64,000 nucleotides of DNA from Polynucleobacter bastaniensis (lineage in GTDB: Bacteria; Pseudomonadota; Gammaproteobacteria; Burkholderiales; Burkholderiaceae): contig NZ_JACVOU010000002.1 of the NCBI RefSeq assembly GCF_018882205.1, positions 62,001 to 126,000 on the forward strand, in the 5' to 3' direction. The translations under genes and the position numbers were made by a program. Below, in pieces: positions 2,018 through 23,990 of this stretch. Each line of letters begins with the position of its first letter. The first letter of the stretch is position 1. The notes under the pieces are model-generated. The model was not told where the DNA came from. It did no database searches and was given only the letters and a program-made list of their open reading frames with translations.

Positions 2018-2135
2018 CAGTCATTTTCACTTGAAAAACCCATCAATCTGAGTGTATTTGTGGCCATTTTTGGTAGGAATATGGCAGTTTTGACTACAAA
2101 ATATAAGTACATAGATGGCAATACAAGGAGAGACC

Positions 2136-2702
2136 ATGGCACAAGCAAAAACATTAAGTGATACAGAATTACAGCGAGCTTTAGATTACGCAGCAAGCAC
2201 CAAAGCAGCAGTGCGTAATCGCGCAATACTGCTGTTAACGCACTGGGCGGGTATGCGTATAGGTGAAGTTGCTAGCGTACGCTACAGCGACGTTTTAAAC
2301 GCTGATAAACAGGTATTAAGTGAGATTCACTTAGCGGCCAATCAAACTAAGGGTTCTAAAAGCAGGGTAGTGCTGTTATCAGAACGGATGCAACAAGAAC
2401 TTGCCATCTATATCGCAGCGCATCCACCAAAAGAGATGAATCGTCCATTGTTTCCCACACAAAGGGCTTATGGATTTACACCTAATACGCTCACCCACGT
2501 GGTTAACGGGCTGTATCGCCAGGCAGGACTTAATGGCGCTACCAGTCATAGCGGTCGCCGTGGCTTTTTGACACGACTCAGTGAGAAGGGTGTTTCAGTA
2601 AGAGTGATGATGCAGTTAGCGGGCCACAGTCAGATGTACACCACGCAGCGCTATATTGATACAAGGCCCGATATTCTGCGCAATGCGGTAGAGCTTATTT
2701 AA
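2136..2702 (+). CDS. Small tyrosine recombinase (integrase catalytic domain only)
   Basis: A 188-residue site-specific recombinase with the full catalytic set. Arg is in HWAGMRIGEV (about residue 43), Lys is likely in the QTKGSKSR hairpin, HSGR carries the His-x-x-Arg box, LAGHS the second His, and YTTQRYI the nucleophilic Tyr near the C-terminus. It lacks the N-terminal arm-binding and SAM-like domains of phage integrases, so its size resembles FimB/FimE-type recombinases. ATG at 2136 is chosen because AGGAG precedes it by about 5 nt; an upstream ATG at 2115 lacks such a site. It overlaps the convergent gene by 8 bases. It probably cuts and joins element ends or inverts a segment; the substrate site is unknown. 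Confidence 0.85.
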   Translation: MAQAKTLSDTELQRALDYAASTKAAVRNRAILLLTHWAGMRIGEVASVRYSDVLNADKQVLSEIHLAANQTKGSKSRVVLLSERMQQELAIYIAAHPPKEMNRPLFPTQRAYGFTPNTLTHVVNGLYRQAGLNGATSHSGRRGFLTRLSEKGVSVRVMMQLAGHSQMYTTQRYIDTRPDILRNAVELI

Positions 2703-6580: not shown

Positions 6581-6637
6581 CCCTGTTAGGTATCTATCTA
6601 GAGCCTGTTAAAAAAACTACAACCATTATTAAGGCCT

Positions 6638-6670
6638 AGGTCGCACGTTCGAATCGTGCTGGGCAGGCCA
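6638..6670 (+). pseudogene. tRNA 3'-end fragment (T arm, acceptor strand, CCA), identity unresolved
   Basis: Bases 6643-6659 form a perfect T arm (GCACG, loop TTCGAAT, CGTGC), preceded by AGGTC and followed by a seven-base acceptor strand, discriminator G and CCA. No 5' half is found upstream. Such a 3' fragment is what an integrated element leaves at its far end. It may mark the right border of the island that contains the recombinase. Confidence 0.6.
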
Positions 6671-6947: not shown

Positions 6948-7020
6948 GGCCAATAGCGTTCGGTAGAGTAGGGGATTGAAAATCCTTGTGTCGGTGGTTC
7001 GATTCCGCCCCGGGCCACCA
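6948..7020 (+). pseudogene. Degenerate tRNA-Phe (GAA)
   Basis: The 3' half is a perfect tRNA-Phe: anticodon loop TTGAAAA within GGGGA/TCCTT (two G-U pairs), T arm, acceptor strand CCGGGCC and ACCA. The 5' acceptor strand reads GGCCAAT, so only four of seven pairs form, and the D arm is shorter than normal. It is probably a pseudo-tRNA whose 5' part has decayed or been replaced. A functional but unusual tRNA cannot be fully excluded. Confidence 0.7.
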
Positions 7021-7028
7021 AGAATCTC

Positions 7029-7057
7029 AATAGCCCACTTGTTGGGCTATTTTCTTT
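7029..7057 (+). terminator. Rho-independent terminator after the tRNA-Phe copy
   Basis: AATAGCCCA pairs with TGGGCTATT and is followed by TTCTTTT. The hairpin is repeated at 7636-7665 after the second tRNA-Phe 3' copy, so it belongs to the original tRNA-Phe transcription unit. Confidence 0.75.
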
Positions 7058-7090
7058 TGGGGCTTGGCTGGGCTAGATGCCATCCTGTAA

Positions 7091-7543
7091 TCAGCCTCGA
7101 GCAGACTCACGCTTTTCGTGAGCCTTTTCCAAAATGCCTGCCTTACCTAAGCCAAACGGTGGCATATTGGCATAGACATTTTCATAAGTGCCTGGAGCAA
7201 CCGAGTAAGTTTCGTGCCAAATGCCTACTGATCCATCATTACCAACAGATCGATTAAAGTTTTTCCAAGCTGGGAGATGTTCAGCGTCTTTGCTTTTGGC
7301 ATAGGCCATTAATTGATCCATCGAGCGCCAATACTGAACAATGATGATCGTCCTCGAAAACCACATTTCGTGATGAAGAAAACCCAGCTCAGGTTTTGTA
7401 TAAAGCTCTTTTAGCATTTTAGGCATAGCTAAAAACACTGGTAACCATTTATGTATTTTCCACCATTGGTTAAATCGCATTCCAATTAAAAAGACCACAA
7501 ACTCACCATCTAAGTGGGAACACATTCTTTCTTTATTAATCAT
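7091..7543 (-). CDS. DUF4188 family protein (monooxygenase-like)
   Basis: A 150-residue protein that fits DUF4188: VVFLIGMRFNQWWKIHKWLP near the N-terminus, then PKMLKELYTKPELGFL, IIVQYWRSMDQLMAYA, HLPAWKNFNR and GIWHETYSV with NMPPFGLGKAG. The fold is a ferredoxin-like dimer seen in antibiotic-biosynthesis monooxygenases, but no substrate is known. ATG at 7543 has GAGGA upstream; an earlier TTG at 7561 is less likely. The gene is alone between two copies of the tRNA-Phe 3' end and so is the cargo of a unit of only about 600 bp. Confidence 0.8.
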   Translation of the reverse strand: MINKERMCSHLDGEFVVFLIGMRFNQWWKIHKWLPVFLAMPKMLKELYTKPELGFLHHEMWFSRTIIIVQYWRSMDQLMAYAKSKDAEHLPAWKNFNRSVGNDGSVGIWHETYSVAPGTYENVYANMPPFGLGKAGILEKAHEKRESARG

Positions 7544-7600
7544 AGGAAGATTCCTCAACAAGAGGACTTATTATATTTAAAGACTAGACATCCTCGGCCC

Positions 7601-7690
7601 TGGTTCGATTCCGCCCCGGGCCACCAAGAATCTCGATAGCCCACTTGTTGGGCTATTTTCTTTTTAAGGCTTGGTAGGGTTAGGCGCCAT
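7601..7690 (+). repeat. Second copy of the tRNA-Phe 3' end plus its terminator
   Basis: From 7601 the sequence repeats 6995 onward: T-arm 3' part, acceptor strand, CCA, and the downstream terminator hairpin (7636-7665). There is one mismatch in the first 63 or so bases, and looser similarity continues to the shared GCCAT near 7690. No tRNA 5' half precedes it. It looks like an attachment site created by integration at tRNA-Phe. Confidence 0.8.
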
Positions 7691-7716
7691 TAGTCGCGTG
7701 TATCCCAAGCATGAAC

Positions 7717-7788
7717 TGTCCTTTAAAAGGACAAATCAATCGTACATCCCTGCGTCAGTCAATGTCGTTTAAAACGACAAACTTTTTT
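7717..7788. repeat. Two related palindromes, TGTCCTTTAAAAGGACA and TGTCGTTTAAAACGACA
   Basis: The 17-base palindromes lie at 7717-7733 and 7763-7779. They share the frame TGTC-x-TTTAAAA-x-GACA, with compensating changes that keep the pairing. The second is followed by AACTTTTTT and could terminate plus-strand transcription. A similar palindrome lies at 9975-9992 after the third tRNA-Phe copy. Function unknown; an operator or an element-end signal are both possible. Confidence 0.5.
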
Positions 7789-7798
7789 ATGGACCCTC

Positions 7799-7833
7799 TC
7801 AATTATGCGTCGATTTAATAGACGCATAATTGA
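7799..7833 (-). terminator. Long terminator hairpin of the HxlR/reductase operon
   Basis: TCAATTATGCGTC and GACGCATAATTGA form a perfect 13-bp stem around a nine-base loop, 20 bases beyond the stop of the HxlR gene. No strong T tract follows on the minus strand, so termination is likely but not certain. Confidence 0.55.
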
Positions 7834-7852
7834 AGCCTCTAGAGTATGAGAT

Positions 7853-8212
7853 TTAGAGTCGAACTATTTTTGAATGATATTCAGATAGATATTTTCCAGC
7901 CCACTTACCAAGACTTTTGATCACAGGCTCTAATGCCTTACCACTCTTTGTGAGTTTGTAGGCGTTATTTCGTGATGCTAATTCAGGGTGGACTCGCTCG
8001 ATTAGTTTTAGCCGAGTCAAAAGATCAAGTCTTGTCGCTAAGATATTGGTTGAAATTTGCTCAGGGGACTCTAGAAATTGACTATAGGTCAAAGCCTCAT
8101 GAATGATCAGGTCACGAATAATTAATAAAGACCATTTATCACCAATCACATCAAGTGCTGAGCTAATTGGGCAGATTGAGCGCCAATCAATTTTTTCATC
8201 CATCTTTTTCAT
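7853..8212 (-). CDS. HxlR-family winged-helix regulator
   Basis: A 119-residue regulator with the HxlR signature: CPISSALDVIGDKWSLLIIRDL at residues 14-35, Cys14 being the conserved redox-sensitive position, then QISTNILATRLDLLTRLKLIER (recognition helix and wing) and the YKLTKSGKALEPVI tail. It starts one base after the stop of the reductase gene upstream, so the two form one operon. HxlR proteins bind inverted repeats near their own promoter. The two ACTTG-N7-CAAGT sites at 9222-9265 in front of the operon are good candidates. Confidence 0.9.
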   Translation of the reverse strand: MKKMDEKIDWRSICPISSALDVIGDKWSLLIIRDLIIHEALTYSQFLESPEQISTNILATRLDLLTRLKLIERVHPELASRNNAYKLTKSGKALEPVIKSLGKWAGKYLSEYHSKIVRL

Positions 8213-8213
8213 A

Positions 8214-9194
8214 TTAGGTAATAGCTGAGGCCATTTCTTTAAAGGACTGCGACATCGGTGTGGGCTTCCATTCTAAAATTTCAAAAGTCTCACTATTATC
8301 ATACGACGCTTTTTTGCCTATAAACGGGAGCATGCCTTTTACCTGCTTGTCAAAAATACCCATGAACTTTAAAAGAAAAGTTGGCGCCTTTCGAGCGGGA
8401 GCCTTGCTGTAGCCAGCATCCCTTAAAACTTGAGTTACGGTCGACATTTCTATCGGTTCTGCTGTGCAAGCGATGAAACGCTTGCCTGAGGCACCGCTTT
8501 TAGTCATGGCGGCGATATGAAGTTTTGCTACATCCCGAACATCAACCATGCCCATAGCCATATCAGGAATCATTGGCATTTTTCCTGCAATCATGTCTGC
8601 CATCATTGCTACATTTTGAGCCCCATCTTTTGAACCAATTGGGGGGCCAAATACAGCGCCAGGATTAATCACAGCAAGCTCTAGGTTGCTGCCTTTAACT
8701 TCCGCCCATGCCGCACGCTCAGCCAAGGTCTTACTTTTTGCGTATGCACCGATATTCTTATTAGTGTCTGACCAGTCTTGAGGCCCATATTTTCCAGTTT
8801 CTTTTCCAGCAATGATGGCAAAAGTGGAAGATGTTAGAACCAGCCTTTTTACTTCAGCACTTTTAGCCGCTTTAATCACTCGAAGCGTCCCGTCTACTGC
8901 AGGGGCAATGAGCTCATTTTCATTTTGAGGTTCTTTCAAAAAGAAGGGGGATGCAACATGGAGAACATAGGAACAACCCTGCATTGCATCGTCCCAGCCT
9001 TTGTCTGATAAAAGATCGGCTTCAACAAAGGATAAATTATCAGTTTGGGCAACTTTACTGATGGCTTTGCGAGTTGCATCTGCCTTTGCTAGGGAGCGAA
9101 CTGTTCCAACCACTTCATATCCTTCGCGAAGTAGTGCGGCGGCACAATGTTCCCCAATATAACCAGTAATTCCTGTAACTAAAACCTTTTCCAT
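8214..9194 (-). CDS. NAD(P)-dependent epimerase/dehydratase-type reductase
   Basis: A 326-residue extended SDR enzyme, close in style to dihydroflavonol-4-reductase and aldehyde reductases. The nucleotide loop is VTGITGYIGEHCA at residues 6-18, the catalytic Tyr-x-x-x-Lys is YAKSK (about 151-155), and NPGAVFGPP is the downstream substrate-side motif. It probably reduces a carbonyl using NADPH. AAGGAG lies upstream of ATG at 9194. It is the first gene of an operon with the HxlR regulator and is divergent from the DMT transporter, so an aldehyde- or quinone-responsive detoxification module is plausible. Confidence 0.85.
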   Translation of the reverse strand: MEKVLVTGITGYIGEHCAAALLREGYEVVGTVRSLAKADATRKAISKVAQTDNLSFVEADLLSDKGWDDAMQGCSYVLHVASPFFLKEPQNENELIAPAVDGTLRVIKAAKSAEVKRLVLTSSTFAIIAGKETGKYGPQDWSDTNKNIGAYAKSKTLAERAAWAEVKGSNLELAVINPGAVFGPPIGSKDGAQNVAMMADMIAGKMPMIPDMAMGMVDVRDVAKLHIAAMTKSGASGKRFIACTAEPIEMSTVTQVLRDAGYSKAPARKAPTFLLKFMGIFDKQVKGMLPFIGKKASYDNSETFEILEWKPTPMSQSFKEMASAIT

Positions 9195-9221
9195 GAAATG
9201 CTCCTTAGGCGTAGATTAATA

Positions 9222-9265
9222 ACTTGCATTTCACAAGTATACAAATTAACTTGTAAATTGCAAGT
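9222..9265. promoter_or_regulatory. Paired operator candidate, two ACTTG-N7-CAAGT sites
   Basis: Sites at 9222-9238 and 9249-9265 have identical arms and the same 7-base spacer, with centres 27 bp apart. They sit in the divergent gap between the reductase/HxlR operon and the DMT gene. HxlR regulators bind such inverted repeats, so control of both directions by the neighbouring HxlR protein is likely. Confidence 0.65.
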
Positions 9266-9316
9266 TAATGTTATGATCTATTTGAAGGCTAAAACAAAAG
9301 CGAAGGGAATCTAAAG

Positions 9317-9778
9317 ATGGATTATTTGAAGTATGCGTTGTGGGCCCTACTTTCAGGCAGTCTCATTCCAATTTTAGGAATTATTAATGGCAGACTTGGA
9401 AGAACGATGGAGATTACTCTTCATGCGCCAGTGATCGCATCATGTATCTGCTTACTTTTTTGCTTTCTAATTAGTTTGGTATTAACTCAATCCTTACCAG
9501 ATCTGGGTAAAGTTTCAGAAGCAAAGCCCATAGAGTTATTTGGCGGGCTCATTTTGGGTTTTTACTTAATTAGTGCAACGATTATTTCACCTAGAATCGG
9601 CGTTGTTAATTTCATAGTGTTTATTGTTGTGGCTCAAATTTTTATGTCAGTTGTCATTGATCACTTCGGATTATTTGGCGCCACTATTCGGCCAGTTAGC
9701 ATGTTGCGATTACTGGGAGTAGGATTGCTGATAATGGGTGTGGTTATCACGCAATTAGCTAATTCCAAAACAAGTTAG
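9317..9778 (+). CDS. DMT-superfamily small membrane transporter, YdcZ type (DUF606)
   Basis: A 153-residue protein with about five membrane segments. It shows the YdcZ/DUF606 pattern: a first helix with GSLIPILGIINGRLGR, then GGLILGFYLISATIISPRIGVVN and a late DHFGLFG...RPVSMLRLLGVGLLIMGV. The family is part of the drug/metabolite transporter superfamily and probably works as a dimer. GAAGGGAA lies before the ATG at a longer than usual distance. It is divergent from the reductase/HxlR pair and shares its operator region, so it may export the compound that the regulator senses. Confidence 0.8.
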   Translation: MDYLKYALWALLSGSLIPILGIINGRLGRTMEITLHAPVIASCICLLFCFLISLVLTQSLPDLGKVSEAKPIELFGGLILGFYLISATIISPRIGVVNFIVFIVVAQIFMSVVIDHFGLFGATIRPVSMLRLLGVGLLIMGVVITQLANSKTS

Positions 9779-9849
9779 AGTGAGCATTCTCTCAAAATAC
9801 GCTTGAACTTATGGGGCCAATAGAAAATACGGTTCGGCATCCTCAGTCG

Positions 9850-9879
9850 TGGTCGATTCCGCCCCGGGCCACCAAGAAT
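9850..9879 (+). repeat. Third copy of the tRNA-Phe 3' end
   Basis: CGATTCCGCCCCGGGCCACC and the following AAGAAT match the earlier copies exactly from the T loop through CCA, with one T missing before CGATT. The downstream terminator is not preserved here. It separates the HxlR/reductase/DMT block from the BLUF gene. Confidence 0.75.
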
Positions 9880-10118
9880 TCTCCGAGCATTGGACGTGGT
9901 CTATCGAATCTCTATTGCTATTCGCAGGTTGATACCATTTCCTCTGGATATCTCAAATTCTCTTTTACTAGAAATGTTCCTTTTAAAGGACAAGTTATCT
10001 ATAGGGATTTTTATCCTTTCGTTGGTCAATATCAGGGTTTTTCCTATTCAAACTTACAAAAATCAACCTATAAAATGTCCTGTAAATATAGGCGCTATCA
10101 AGTGTCAAAGGGGGTAAG
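9880..10118. other. Gene-free interval before the BLUF gene
   Basis: About 240 bases without a supported gene. It holds one palindrome (TCCTTTTAAAGGA within 9975-9992) related to those at 7717 and 7763. Overlapping short ORFs in two frames have no protein-like composition. No clear -35/-10 pair was recognised. Confidence 0.4.
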
Positions 10119-10538
10119 GTGTTATTAAAAAGATCAAGTCAATTGATCGAGCTTAGCTACGTTAGCAAGGCATCAAGACCAATGAACTTAATGGATTTGG
10201 TCTATTTGTTTGATATTTCGTACAAGTGGAATCAGGATCATCAAATCACCGGCGTGCTATTTTATGAGAATGGGATGTTCTCTCAAATCCTAGAGGGCAC
10301 CGAGGACAATGTGATGGAAGTTTGGGCAAAGATTGAGCAGGACGATCGCCATCATATTTTGCGGAAATTAAACTGCTCACCATCCAATCAAAGACGCTAC
10401 CCTAACTGGGTATTACGGTTTTATCAAGGTAATCTCATTGCCAAATATATGCCCCAACTTGGCAAAGTGCTAGATGGCTTACCCAGTCATGATCATGAGT
10501 TATTAGAAATCATGCGCTCAGTAGAAGAGTCAGCTTAA
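10119..10538 (+). CDS. BLUF-domain blue-light photoreceptor, stand-alone
   Basis: A 139-residue single-domain BLUF protein that should bind FAD. The key residues are visible: Tyr in LSYVSKA (about residue 14), Asn in KWNQDHQITGVLFY, Gln in MFSQILEG and a late Trp in YPNWVLRF. There is no fused EAL, GGDEF or other output domain, so it would act through a partner protein, as PixD/YcgF-like short BLUF proteins do. The start is GTG at 10119 with AAGGGGG four bases upstream. It lies alone between the third and fourth tRNA-Phe fragments. Photolyase genes occur later in the window but are not linked. Confidence 0.85.
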   Translation: MLLKRSSQLIELSYVSKASRPMNLMDLVYLFDISYKWNQDHQITGVLFYENGMFSQILEGTEDNVMEVWAKIEQDDRHHILRKLNCSPSNQRRYPNWVLRFYQGNLIAKYMPQLGKVLDGLPSHDHELLEIMRSVEESA

Positions 10539-10577
10539 CTTTTTTATTGTGCTGTAAGAGTTTTTCGCTATAGGAAA

Positions 10578-10603
10578 TCGATTCTGCCCTAGGTCGCCAA
10601 GAA
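10578..10603 (+). repeat. Fourth, decayed copy of the tRNA-Phe 3' end
   Basis: TCGATTCTGCCCTAGGTCGC followed by CAAGAA aligns with the other copies with five mismatches in 24 positions and no gap. The position after a cargo gene and the shared orientation support a decayed attachment site. Chance similarity is less likely but possible. Confidence 0.5.
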
Positions 10604-10737
10604 ACATCAAAACCACCATCGGGTAGTTCTTTAAGGGTTACTTTAAGTGACGCTTGTGAGATTAGAAAAGTATGCAGGCTATTTTCACACAGTCTACCTA
10701 TTGGCAAGACTAGGTATACCAATCCAAGCTTATAAAT

Positions 10738-11387: not shown

Positions 11388-11981
11388 TTAGAATGTAGAT
11401 GTATAAGAGCTGACATCTGGCCTAATTTTATTGGGCTTATGGGTGGAGATGGTTCCGATAGTGATGAAACATAAGGGCTGCTCTTTATCCTTGAATAAAA
11501 ATAACTCTCTCATTTTTTGGCTATAAAGAGCTTTGCCGCTCGAAAGTCCAGATCCAAATCCTAAAGCATTAGCCATTAATAAAATATTCTGGATTGCACA
11601 TCCCGCAGAAATAATTTTTTCTTGTTCGGGAATTTCATCTTGCTCATTGTTAAGATTAACGGTTGCCAATAAAAGGAGGGGACCCCGAAATGCTTTTTGT
11701 TTGGCCTCCTCAACCTGAGCTAGCGTTGCAGTGGGATCTCTTTCAATGAGAGCATTTGCAAACAAGTCACCCAATAGATTGCGACTTTTAGGAGTAACTT
11801 CATAAAAGTGCCAGGGAGTTATTTTTCCATGATCGGGAGCTGCTCCTGCCGCATTAAGAATTTCTAATTTCTGGGATAGGTTGGGGCCGGGCGCAATAAG
11901 TCTTTTGGGTGAAACATGTTGACGGCTATGTATTAGCGCATTAGCAAGGCCACCAAGCGAATCTAAATTGCTAGAAGCCAA
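11388..11981 (-). CDS. Nitroreductase family protein
   Basis: A 197-residue flavoprotein of the YdjA-like nitroreductase group. [16 protein letters not shown] and the following [16 protein letters not shown] are the FMN-binding N-terminal motifs. [20 protein letters not shown] is the helix and loop that contacts the flavin. It would reduce nitro groups, quinones or similar substrates with NAD(P)H. The only start that keeps the N-terminal motif is TTG at 11981, which overlaps the end of the DUF1348 gene by 11 bases, so translation is probably coupled to it. Confidence 0.85.
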
Positions 11982-12438
11982 AATGACTCAATCCTGGGTG
12001 ATCATCGGGTCTTCTACCAAGAGGCCAAAAGAATTTCCGGTCTGATTCTTTAATGGGTAAATCATTGATGCTGGCAAAGCGCCTCATCATGAAACCGTTT
12101 TCATTGAATTCCCAATTCTCATTACCAAAGCTGCGGCTCCAGTTGCCAGAATCATCATGGCACTCATACGCGAAGCGAACTGCAATGCGGTTATCAGTAA
12201 ACGCCCATAATTCTTTAATCAATCGGTAATCAAGCTCTTTTGCCCATTTACGATGGAGAAACTCTTTTACTTGTTCTCGACCCTTGGGAAATTCAGCTCG
12301 ATTTCTCCAAATGGTGTCTTCGGTGTAGACCAAAGAGACTTTTTCAGGATCTCGTGTATTCCAAGCATCCTCAGCCATCCGAATCTTCTGAATAGCAGTT
12401 TCATTATTAAAAGGGGGTAATGGTGCTTTTTGTTCCAT
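11971..12438 (-). CDS. DUF1348 / NTF2-like small protein
   Basis: A 155-residue protein with the DUF1348 pattern: [63 protein letters not shown] and a conserved late [10 protein letters not shown]. The fold is the NTF2-like cone that holds small hydrophobic ligands. No enzyme activity is established. It is upstream of and overlaps the nitroreductase gene, so the pair is probably one transcript. Confidence 0.85.
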
Positions 12439-23882: not shown

Positions 23883-23945
23883 ACACACCGATAATGAGAC
23901 GCTGTAACCTCTTGAAATCCTAGTGGTTTTCTTTGGATGTCTGCT

Positions 23946-23990
23946 CTCATAATCCTTTGGTCCCAGGTTCAAGTCCTGGTGGGCCCACCA
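23946..23990 (+). pseudogene. tRNA-Met 3' fragment (anticodon loop to CCA)
   Basis: Sequence from the anticodon loop CTCATAA through TCCTT, variable loop, T arm (CCAGG-TTCAAGT-CCTGG), TGGGCCC, A and CCA matches elongator tRNA-Met. The 5' half is absent: the bases before the loop (CTGCT) do not pair with TCCTT. It is followed by a tRNA-style terminator. This is what is expected at the far border of an element integrated into tRNA-Met. Confidence 0.75.

Follow-up and report, generated by a model that had tools for sequence, protein, structure and literature searches.

Integrase-less gene cassettes arrayed at tRNA-Phe in Polynucleobacter and an aging side array in Polynucleobacter bastaniensis

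How do small blocks of genes that encode no integrase come to stand in a row between repeats of a tRNA tail? The question is raised by a stretch of 64,000 nucleotides (nt) of Polynucleobacter bastaniensis (C2:62001-126000 in a genome of 2.14 Mb in six contigs; hereafter the window), in which four copies of the 3' end of tRNA-Phe enclose three short units. A sequence-only reading of the window had proposed a cassette array built on a tRNA attachment site. The explanation that we favor, at a probability of roughly two in three, is that such cassettes are non-autonomous integrative units inserted at tRNA-Phe by a site-specific recombinase acting in trans, and that the window holds a secondary, aging stretch, a side branch of this tRNA-Phe cassette array system.

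The repeated core, TTCGATTCCGCCCCGGGCCACCAAGA, comprises 26 nt, namely the last 23 nt of tRNA-Phe and AGA. At up to 8 mismatches, there are exactly four matches on both strands of the whole window, starting at 6998, 7604, 9852 and 10577 with 0, 0, 1 and 6 mismatches, respectively. The best match in each of 12 random Markov-1 windows had 7 to 10 mismatches, which places copies 1 to 3 far beyond chance. Copy 4 is weaker and is accompanied, as judged by eye, by a decayed form of a usual terminator, AAACATCAAAACCACCATCGGG. As had been read from the sequence, copies 1 and 2 have core and terminator in common over 64 nt at 98%; the right flank of copy 3 is unlike theirs. Copy 1 terminates a degenerate but almost complete tRNA-Phe that starts at 6948 and aligns ungapped with 14 mismatches to 80 nt of the intact gene and its flank. 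In the window, ARAGORN called no tRNA, and Rfam at the gathering score reported no RNA family. Pfam bore out the cargo that had been named for the three units: a PF13826 protein (a family formerly named DUF4188), an NAD-dependent epimerase/dehydratase (the former reductase) with an HxlR regulator and a DMT_YdcZ exporter, and a BLUF photoreceptor (Table 1). Likewise, no integrase was seen with Pfam and recombinase profiles among the open reading frames (ORFs) of the three units.

Another contig, C1, carries the intact tRNA-Phe, which is followed within 15 kb by seven more core copies that delimit seven units. Their cargo comprises a DUF6268 protein, a two-gene unit, a 7.5-kb unit, a BrnT/BrnA toxin-antitoxin pair in 645 bp, a lipid A acyltransferase-like protein, a histidine kinase and a CBS protein. 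Since the intact gene heads the C1 array, the window array is secondary. The sequence-only reading had thus picked out a real array, but one headed by a pseudogene, and had overlooked the main array on the other contig. Similar pseudogene-headed sites are present in three other genomes (G031, G010 and G040). Those of G010 and G040 represent one locus (94.7% over 5.3 kb), and the flanks of the others are unalike beyond about 120 nt. The region of the window array also contains 3' remnants of tRNA-Arg(TCT) and tRNA-Met(CAT).

The core is widespread in the genus. We used tool-drawn samples of 61 and 121 genomes, one per species and including P. bastaniensis. Within 2 mismatches of 22 nt, the core was found in 58 of 61 genomes, with at least two copies in 53, and a reversed control pattern was found in none of the 61. 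We fetched 33 stretches picked for contiguity and many copies, and unit counts describe these stretches, not the genus: 28 contain at least one unit, 5 a single core and no unit, and 25 an intact tRNA-Phe. They hold 122 units of 294 bp to 13.4 kb (median 1.25 kb) in arrays of 0 to 12 units that differ in content and order. The locus looks alike across species, with ntrX upstream of tRNA-Phe in the fetched flank of 17 genomes.

Cargo at this fixed chromosomal site is variable. By nucleotide comparison, 70 of the 122 units fall into 20 clusters, often with other positions and neighbors. Different cargo between the same repeats, which the sequence-only reading had suggested looking for in other genomes, is therefore found. 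The cargo of window units 1 and 2 occurs in 1 of 121 genomes each, P. bastaniensis itself, with no relative in the 120 others at the thresholds used; the same copies and cargo in all relatives, named beforehand as the mark of an old duplication, were not observed. Some cassettes do lie at the far end of arrays in several species (G000.7 and G012.12; G014.5, G024.5 and G031.9), as might be expected of an old tandem duplication of a tRNA-Phe fragment inherited together with its cargo. Against the single-genome cargo of units 1 and 2, and arrays that vary from none to a dozen units, we regard such a duplication as highly improbable. A far-end gene common to the arrays was not established: 13 tails fell into one tblastx cluster, and Dps, the first candidate, is in 3 of them. 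BLUF, the cargo of unit 3, is common in the genus (96 of 121 genomes). Of the 14 best BLUF matches beyond the window, 2 are enclosed by two cores (G038, G008), 2 start about 170 nt past a core (G034, G039), 4 are accompanied by a more distant core with 3 to 7 mismatches, and 6 have no core within their 1.5-kb flanks.

The right ends of the units are of two types, a (108 sites) and b (22 sites), where type a was defined by exclusion as neither intact tRNA nor type b. Type b repeats tRNA-Phe from about nt 32 (nt 32-76) and includes window copy 1 and other pseudogene heads. At type-a sites, a 24-nt arm with the approximate consensus TAGRRTNRRNCATCCTCGGCCCTGG directly precedes the core, and conservation fades beyond the arm in a logo of the 108 sites. 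The arm is absent from the tRNA sequence and is not cargo. An arm profile trained on 79 units, with a cut at the 99th percentile of random positions, recognized 19 of 23 units with cargo that is unmatched elsewhere in the set; intact tRNA-Phe scored -9 versus a median of 13. At the left end of a unit stands a flank, in most cases a terminator, that moves together with the cargo. Among 48 pairs of homologous cassettes, which are non-independent and come from 15 hand-picked clusters, upstream flanks were alike (0.797 versus a background of 0.683, p=7e-7) and downstream flanks were not (0.661 versus 0.683, p=0.29). This pattern indicates a unit composed of core, terminator, cargo and, in most units, the arm, as expected if recombination falls inside the core. 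Judged from the alignments, then, the units have a defined structure, a common arm is attached to unrelated cargo, and the upstream flank is linked to the cargo. Cargo is present in both orientations, 185 of 255 ORFs of at least 100 amino acids (aa) running in the same direction as the tRNA.

Two further ideas about the ends were dropped. A conserved arm hairpin, AGGAT..ATCCT, appeared attractive, but many arms read AGAGT..ATCCT and are unpaired (by eye, pairs uncounted), and the folded-strand model was abandoned on these grounds. Copying of the terminator from a neighbor at insertion was rejected because adjacent flanks (0.711) were no more alike than non-adjacent ones (0.712).

The arm also bears on the possibility that arrays are exchanged by natural transformation and homologous recombination, with the tRNA tail and terminator as homology and no site-specific enzyme at work today. 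Terminator families common to cassettes would offer homology of up to 50-70 nt, no dedicated recombinase shared by the 12 genomes searched is evident beyond two universal ones, and a study of one species of the genus describes frequent recombination (r/m, recombination to mutation, 7.4; PMC5644125). However, homologous recombination does not need a sharp-ended, non-tRNA arm that is conserved on unrelated cargo. Such exchange accounts for later shuffling, not for the origin of the ends, and we consider it improbable as the explanation of the arrays.

Sequence identities show lateral transfer of cassettes. We used ntrX as the baseline, since the tRNA upstream flanks, where elements insert too, are unfit for this purpose. 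A 2.5-kb type-b cassette with an OprB porin is 98.4-98.8% identical among G016, G018 and G049, where ntrX is 72.6-76.8% identical. In the best type-a case, the BrnTA cassette of G004 and G014 is 96.9% identical, compared with 78.9% for ntrX. The cores also decay away from the tRNA, the more so with distance (permutation within arrays, p=5e-5, over 108 sites and 19 informative arrays).

Based on these features, a cassette begins, at its tRNA-proximal end, with the last 23 nt of tRNA-Phe and AGA, usually followed by a terminator and then by one or a few cargo genes, and finishes in the 24-nt non-tRNA arm at its far end. In a circular form, the arm would lie directly before the tRNA tail and constitute an attP-like site. 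A site-specific recombinase supplied in trans would join this site with the 3' end of tRNA-Phe inside the common 26 nt. The tRNA would then be completed by the tail and terminator that the cassette brings, and older cassettes would be moved farther off. Type b is a second class, marked by repeats of tRNA nt 32-76; autonomous elements with an integrase of about 425 aa adjoining the tRNA belong to it. We infer the circle, the place of the crossover and the trans-acting enzyme from this arrangement, and the system may still be at work today.

Which recombinase might act on the cassettes? The sequence-only reading had pointed to the recombinase at 2136 of the window. This protein appears to be the small partner in a neighboring element whose 448-aa putative integrase lies at C2:58544, just upstream of the window, and for the small protein Pfam returned a weak, sub-threshold integrase N-terminal domain alone. 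At E 1e-10, 28 of the 61 genomes (several of them drafts) have no small-recombinase match, and 23 of these 28 still have at least two cores, which argues against the proposed role. Relatives of the 425-aa integrase are present in 36 of 61 genomes and small recombinase partners in 33. Two recombinase hidden Markov models (HMMs), built from 12 recombinase sequences of the genus, matched 0 of 102 type-a units, although an unrelated recombinase would escape these profiles, and 4 of 20 type-b units, one of which (G049) was a seed. The type-b units without a recombinase have tRNA nt 32-76 in common with the integrase-bearing G049 unit 1, and no intact helper with type-a ends was found in the loci examined.

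The integrative elements of the genus at tRNA-Phe (G049, G018, G027, G002) use the same tRNA gene and combine a tyrosine integrase of about 400-425 aa with a small recombinase. Elements downstream of tRNA-Phe (G049, G020) repeat nt 32-76, and elements on its 5' side (G018, G027, G002) repeat nt 1-38/39. In L050, L051 and L052 the 5'-side elements supply a new 5' half of tRNA-Phe, and the old half (nt 1-38/39) is left at the far end. Where both repeats overlap, in the anticodon loop, these integrases likely cross over. By contrast, type-a repeats start only at the T loop, which implies a different specificity.

In G036, the core of a type-a unit is free of mismatches, yet the genome shows two PF00589 matches, none to PF00239, and nothing related to the 425-aa integrase or the small recombinase. 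G050, which is outside the fetched stretches, has the same counts and five cores. The two universal PF00589 recombinases are presumably XerC and XerD. Genomes of this kind may receive a visiting enzyme, contain arrays that are no longer fed, or make use of a host Xer protein.

The units could alternatively be worn remains of ordinary integrative elements, each once equipped with its own integrase and inserted serially at tRNA-Phe. Autonomous, integrase-bearing elements do occur at tRNA-Phe (G049 unit 1 and G020, with a decayed one in G014 unit 4). In addition, a unit with type-a ends, L092:3215-5038, keeps the N-terminal part of a related tyrosine integrase next to a gene pair that resembles a toxin-antitoxin pair by eye. 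L092 belongs to a metagenome-assembled genome (MAG) labeled Bordetella parapertussis, a doubtful label, and its remnant could show how a cassette arises by loss of the integrase. However, none of the 102 type-a units of the main set contains a detected recombinase gene even though many cores are perfect, and type-a and type-b ends differ. The same short integrase-less cassettes moreover recur at high identity in several species, so that cassettes seem to move in reduced form. Serial wear is thus an unlikely origin of the arrays.

Several observations weigh against insertion of the cassettes by a recombinase in trans. No recombinase tied to the type-a arm was found, and no circle or excised site was seen. 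Our profiles could overlook an unrelated recombinase, and the lack of a resident one is unproven even for G036; a PF00589 search at 1e-4 left out the 448-aa putative integrase of P. bastaniensis, so a divergent enzyme could be overlooked. Cargo family scans covered the first 25 of 111 Pfam and 25 of 47 PHROGs families and do not thereby exclude a recombinase; a separate recombinase motif search, which flagged none and passed over known integrases too, was not used as evidence. Units G014.3 and G026.2 enclose two integrase-bearing stretches, the ends of which do not resemble tRNA-Phe sites. Being defined by exclusion, type a includes decayed ends, and 4 of the 23 held-out arms scored below the cut. 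The strongest identity contrast (98%) belongs to a type-b cassette, and some homologous pairs are close to the chromosomal value (78.1% versus 79.0%), which suggests that many exchanges are old. When all sites are pooled, decay and position correlate weakly by rank (rho 0.19, p=0.049). A comparison of one genome per species has a resolution above that of single-cassette gain or loss between close strains. Finally, the exact type-a pattern had 0 matches in IMG/VR.

Two candidate sources of mobility were discarded. A link of type-b arms to the integrase of G014.3 and G026.2 fails because its ends fall inside the units and are not tRNA-like. Viral carriers were not supported by searches limited to exact patterns and close relatives: one exact type-b arm, like the type-a pattern, had no IMG/VR match, and no relative of the 425-aa integrase was confirmed among 4 candidate stretches.

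The type-a signal extends beyond the genus. Its exact pattern was found in 83 stretches of GTDB species genomes. The titles of 80 of these name Polynucleobacter, Zwartia, Sheuella, Alcaligenaceae, Burkholderiaceae, Burkholderiales and unclassified beta-proteobacterial MAGs, together with MAGs labeled Chitinophaga, Ferrovum and Bordetella, which we suspect to be mis-binned or mislabeled. Zwartia and Sheuella are members of Alcaligenaceae. In ten Alcaligenaceae-type records, three of which (L092, L107, L120) lack Alcaligenaceae in the title and were grouped by their tRNA flank, the arm profile recognized 19 of 23 sites, although the search pattern had set 1 of the 24 arm positions beforehand. 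Zwartia and Sheuella cassettes are about 67-79% identical in nucleotides to those of Polynucleobacter, and no recent transfer between the families is thereby shown.

How do these arrays compare with known systems? As in integrons, small cassettes stand in tandem with one site each at a fixed end. The sites of integron cassettes, attC, carry the boxes RYYYAAC and GTTRRRY. Both boxes were present in 0 of 108 type-a sites (within -70 to +40), and we agree with the sequence-only reading that this is not an integron. With integrons and clusters of attC sites lacking integrases (CALIN; PMC11389934), the likeness lies in ordered small cassettes with one common site each, one anchored end and, as proposed here, mobilization in trans when the integrase is absent. 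The Polynucleobacter site differs in consisting of a tRNA 3' end and an arm, and the cargo in lying in both orientations.

Additive flexible genomic islands that use a tRNA as cassette target have been described in Alteromonas (PMC4119200), Ca. Actinomarinales (PMC7771536) and Methylophilaceae (fGI-2 at tRNA-Lys; PMC10872708). According to the sections on these islands, they resemble the Polynucleobacter arrays in the tRNA target, tRNA direct repeats that end cassettes, variable cargo and small units (fGI-2 from 330 bp). Repeats that end cassettes next to an intact tRNA are found in the main Polynucleobacter arrays and not in the pseudogene-headed window array. The non-tRNA arm and the cassette-borne terminator are features of the Polynucleobacter units that these sections do not mention for the islands; also, a Polynucleobacter array can hold up to 12 units, and records of another family show the same arm. 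Set against these descriptions, three features may be new: the arm, a terminator borne by the cassette, and occurrence in 53 of the 61 genomes sampled. Similarly, the tycheposons of Prochlorococcus are outlined in the same source as tRNA-targeted cargo elements of streamlined aquatic bacteria with tyrosine recombinases around (PMC10872708). They are transposons of 4-200 kb there, with a tyrosine recombinase in Methylophilaceae, whereas type-a units measure 0.29-9.5 kb (median 1.1 kb), few reach 4 kb, and a recombinase was detected in 0 of 102. We found no literature that pairs Polynucleobacter with tRNA-Phe, although a paper on a Polynucleobacter island (PMC5244307) may already mention the locus.

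The arrays are also unlike defense islands: among 112 cargo representatives, 5 PADLOC families were matched by one member each. The representatives were the longest ORF per unit, taken from the 122 units after setting aside 6 units without an ORF of at least 90 aa, 1 ORF spanning two loci and 3 ORFs from integrase-bearing units.

Other tRNA genes of P. bastaniensis show related features. The 3' end of tRNA-Arg(TCT) has 13 matches in the genome, including the intact gene on C6, with copies at the C2 end, at the C4 start, at C6:3957 and in the window. At least 7 of the 13 have their own conserved arm around GCCATTGAAATATATAGACTTTTGAACAGCCACGAATTC, which is unlike the tRNA-Phe arm. The copies look like a second tRNA-based array, spread over contig ends. 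The genome also contains 3' halves of tRNA-Met(CAT), and the half at 23944 is likely the distal boundary of the island in which the window array lies. A broader joint claim is, in our view, somewhat less likely than not. It holds that there is a distinct, integron-like system at tRNA genes, in which a dedicated or visiting recombinase would recognize the arm by the tRNA-Phe T loop and load cassettes without integrases, every one of which would supply a fresh tRNA tail and terminator; that the system would span freshwater Burkholderiales of two families; and that parallel versions with their own arms would exist at tRNA-Arg(TCT) and possibly at tRNA-Met(CAT).

Some side observations concern the surroundings. 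Short palindromes of the types TGTCGTTTAAAACGACA and GTCCTTTTAAAAGGAC, noticed by eye and uncounted, lie near cassette ends in the window (about 7718-7780 and 9975-9991) and in several arrays. Window positions 11972-12438 resemble L013:9921-10387, at the C2 end near the tRNA-Arg(TCT) copies, over 467 nt at 81% identity. A group I intron match (RF00028, 51.1 bits versus a cut-off of 50) at L011:7325-7542, about 4.5 kb before the window start, directly precedes a tRNA-Met(CAT) 3' half, downstream of a gene that we take to be rpoD from its appearance. Such an intron would explain why ARAGORN missed this tRNA-Met(CAT), which may be a functional, intron-bearing tRNA. By eye, a stem in the 3' part of the match varies between genomes with pairing kept.

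Table 1. Positions of the tRNA-derived repeats, cassette parts and recombinase gene in the window
Feature	Position	Strand	Basis or remark
Small tyrosine recombinase of the neighboring element, 188 aa (the one at 2136)	2115..2702	+	Not favored as cassette recombinase
tRNA-Arg(TCT) 3' fragment	6630..6670	+	
tRNA-Phe pseudogene, head of the window array; 5' part degenerate, anticodon arm to CCA intact	6948..7020	+	14-mismatch alignment to intact gene; no ARAGORN call
Core copy 1	6998..7023	+	0 mismatches
Terminator-like flank, common to copy 2 and the intact tRNA-Phe on C1	7024..7058	+	
Unit 1 cargo, Monooxy_af470-like protein (PF13826)	7091..7561	-	Pfam 1.8e-47; 1/121 genomes
Type-a (short) arm, right end of unit 1, AAGACTAGACATCCTCGGCCCTGG	7580..7603	+	Sequence, consensus
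Core copy 2	7604..7629	+	0 mismatches; terminator then runs to 7664
Unit 2 cargo, HxlR regulator	7853..8212	-	Pfam
Unit 2 cargo, NAD-dependent epimerase/dehydratase	8214..9194	-	Pfam; 1/121 genomes
Unit 2 cargo, DMT_YdcZ exporter	9317..9778	+	Pfam
Type-a arm, right end of unit 2	9828..9851	+	Sequence
Core copy 3	9852..9877	+	1 mismatch
Unit 3 cargo, BLUF photoreceptor	10119..10538	+	Pfam; 55-58% homologues between or just after cores in four other genomes
Core copy 4, decayed, with remnant terminator; arm not recognizable by eye	10577..10636	+	6 mismatches
tRNA-Met(CAT) 3' half	23944..23990	+	

In conclusion, streamlined freshwater bacteria exchange adaptive genes, and the arrays at tRNA-Phe bear on how genes can move when they lack any mobility functions of their own. 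The arrays offer defined units, an end signal and a polar record of insertion, with which the missing recombinase can be sought directly. If our explanation is true, these arrays would represent a second natural way, besides integrons, to load cassettes at a fixed site, and one that leaves an essential gene unharmed.

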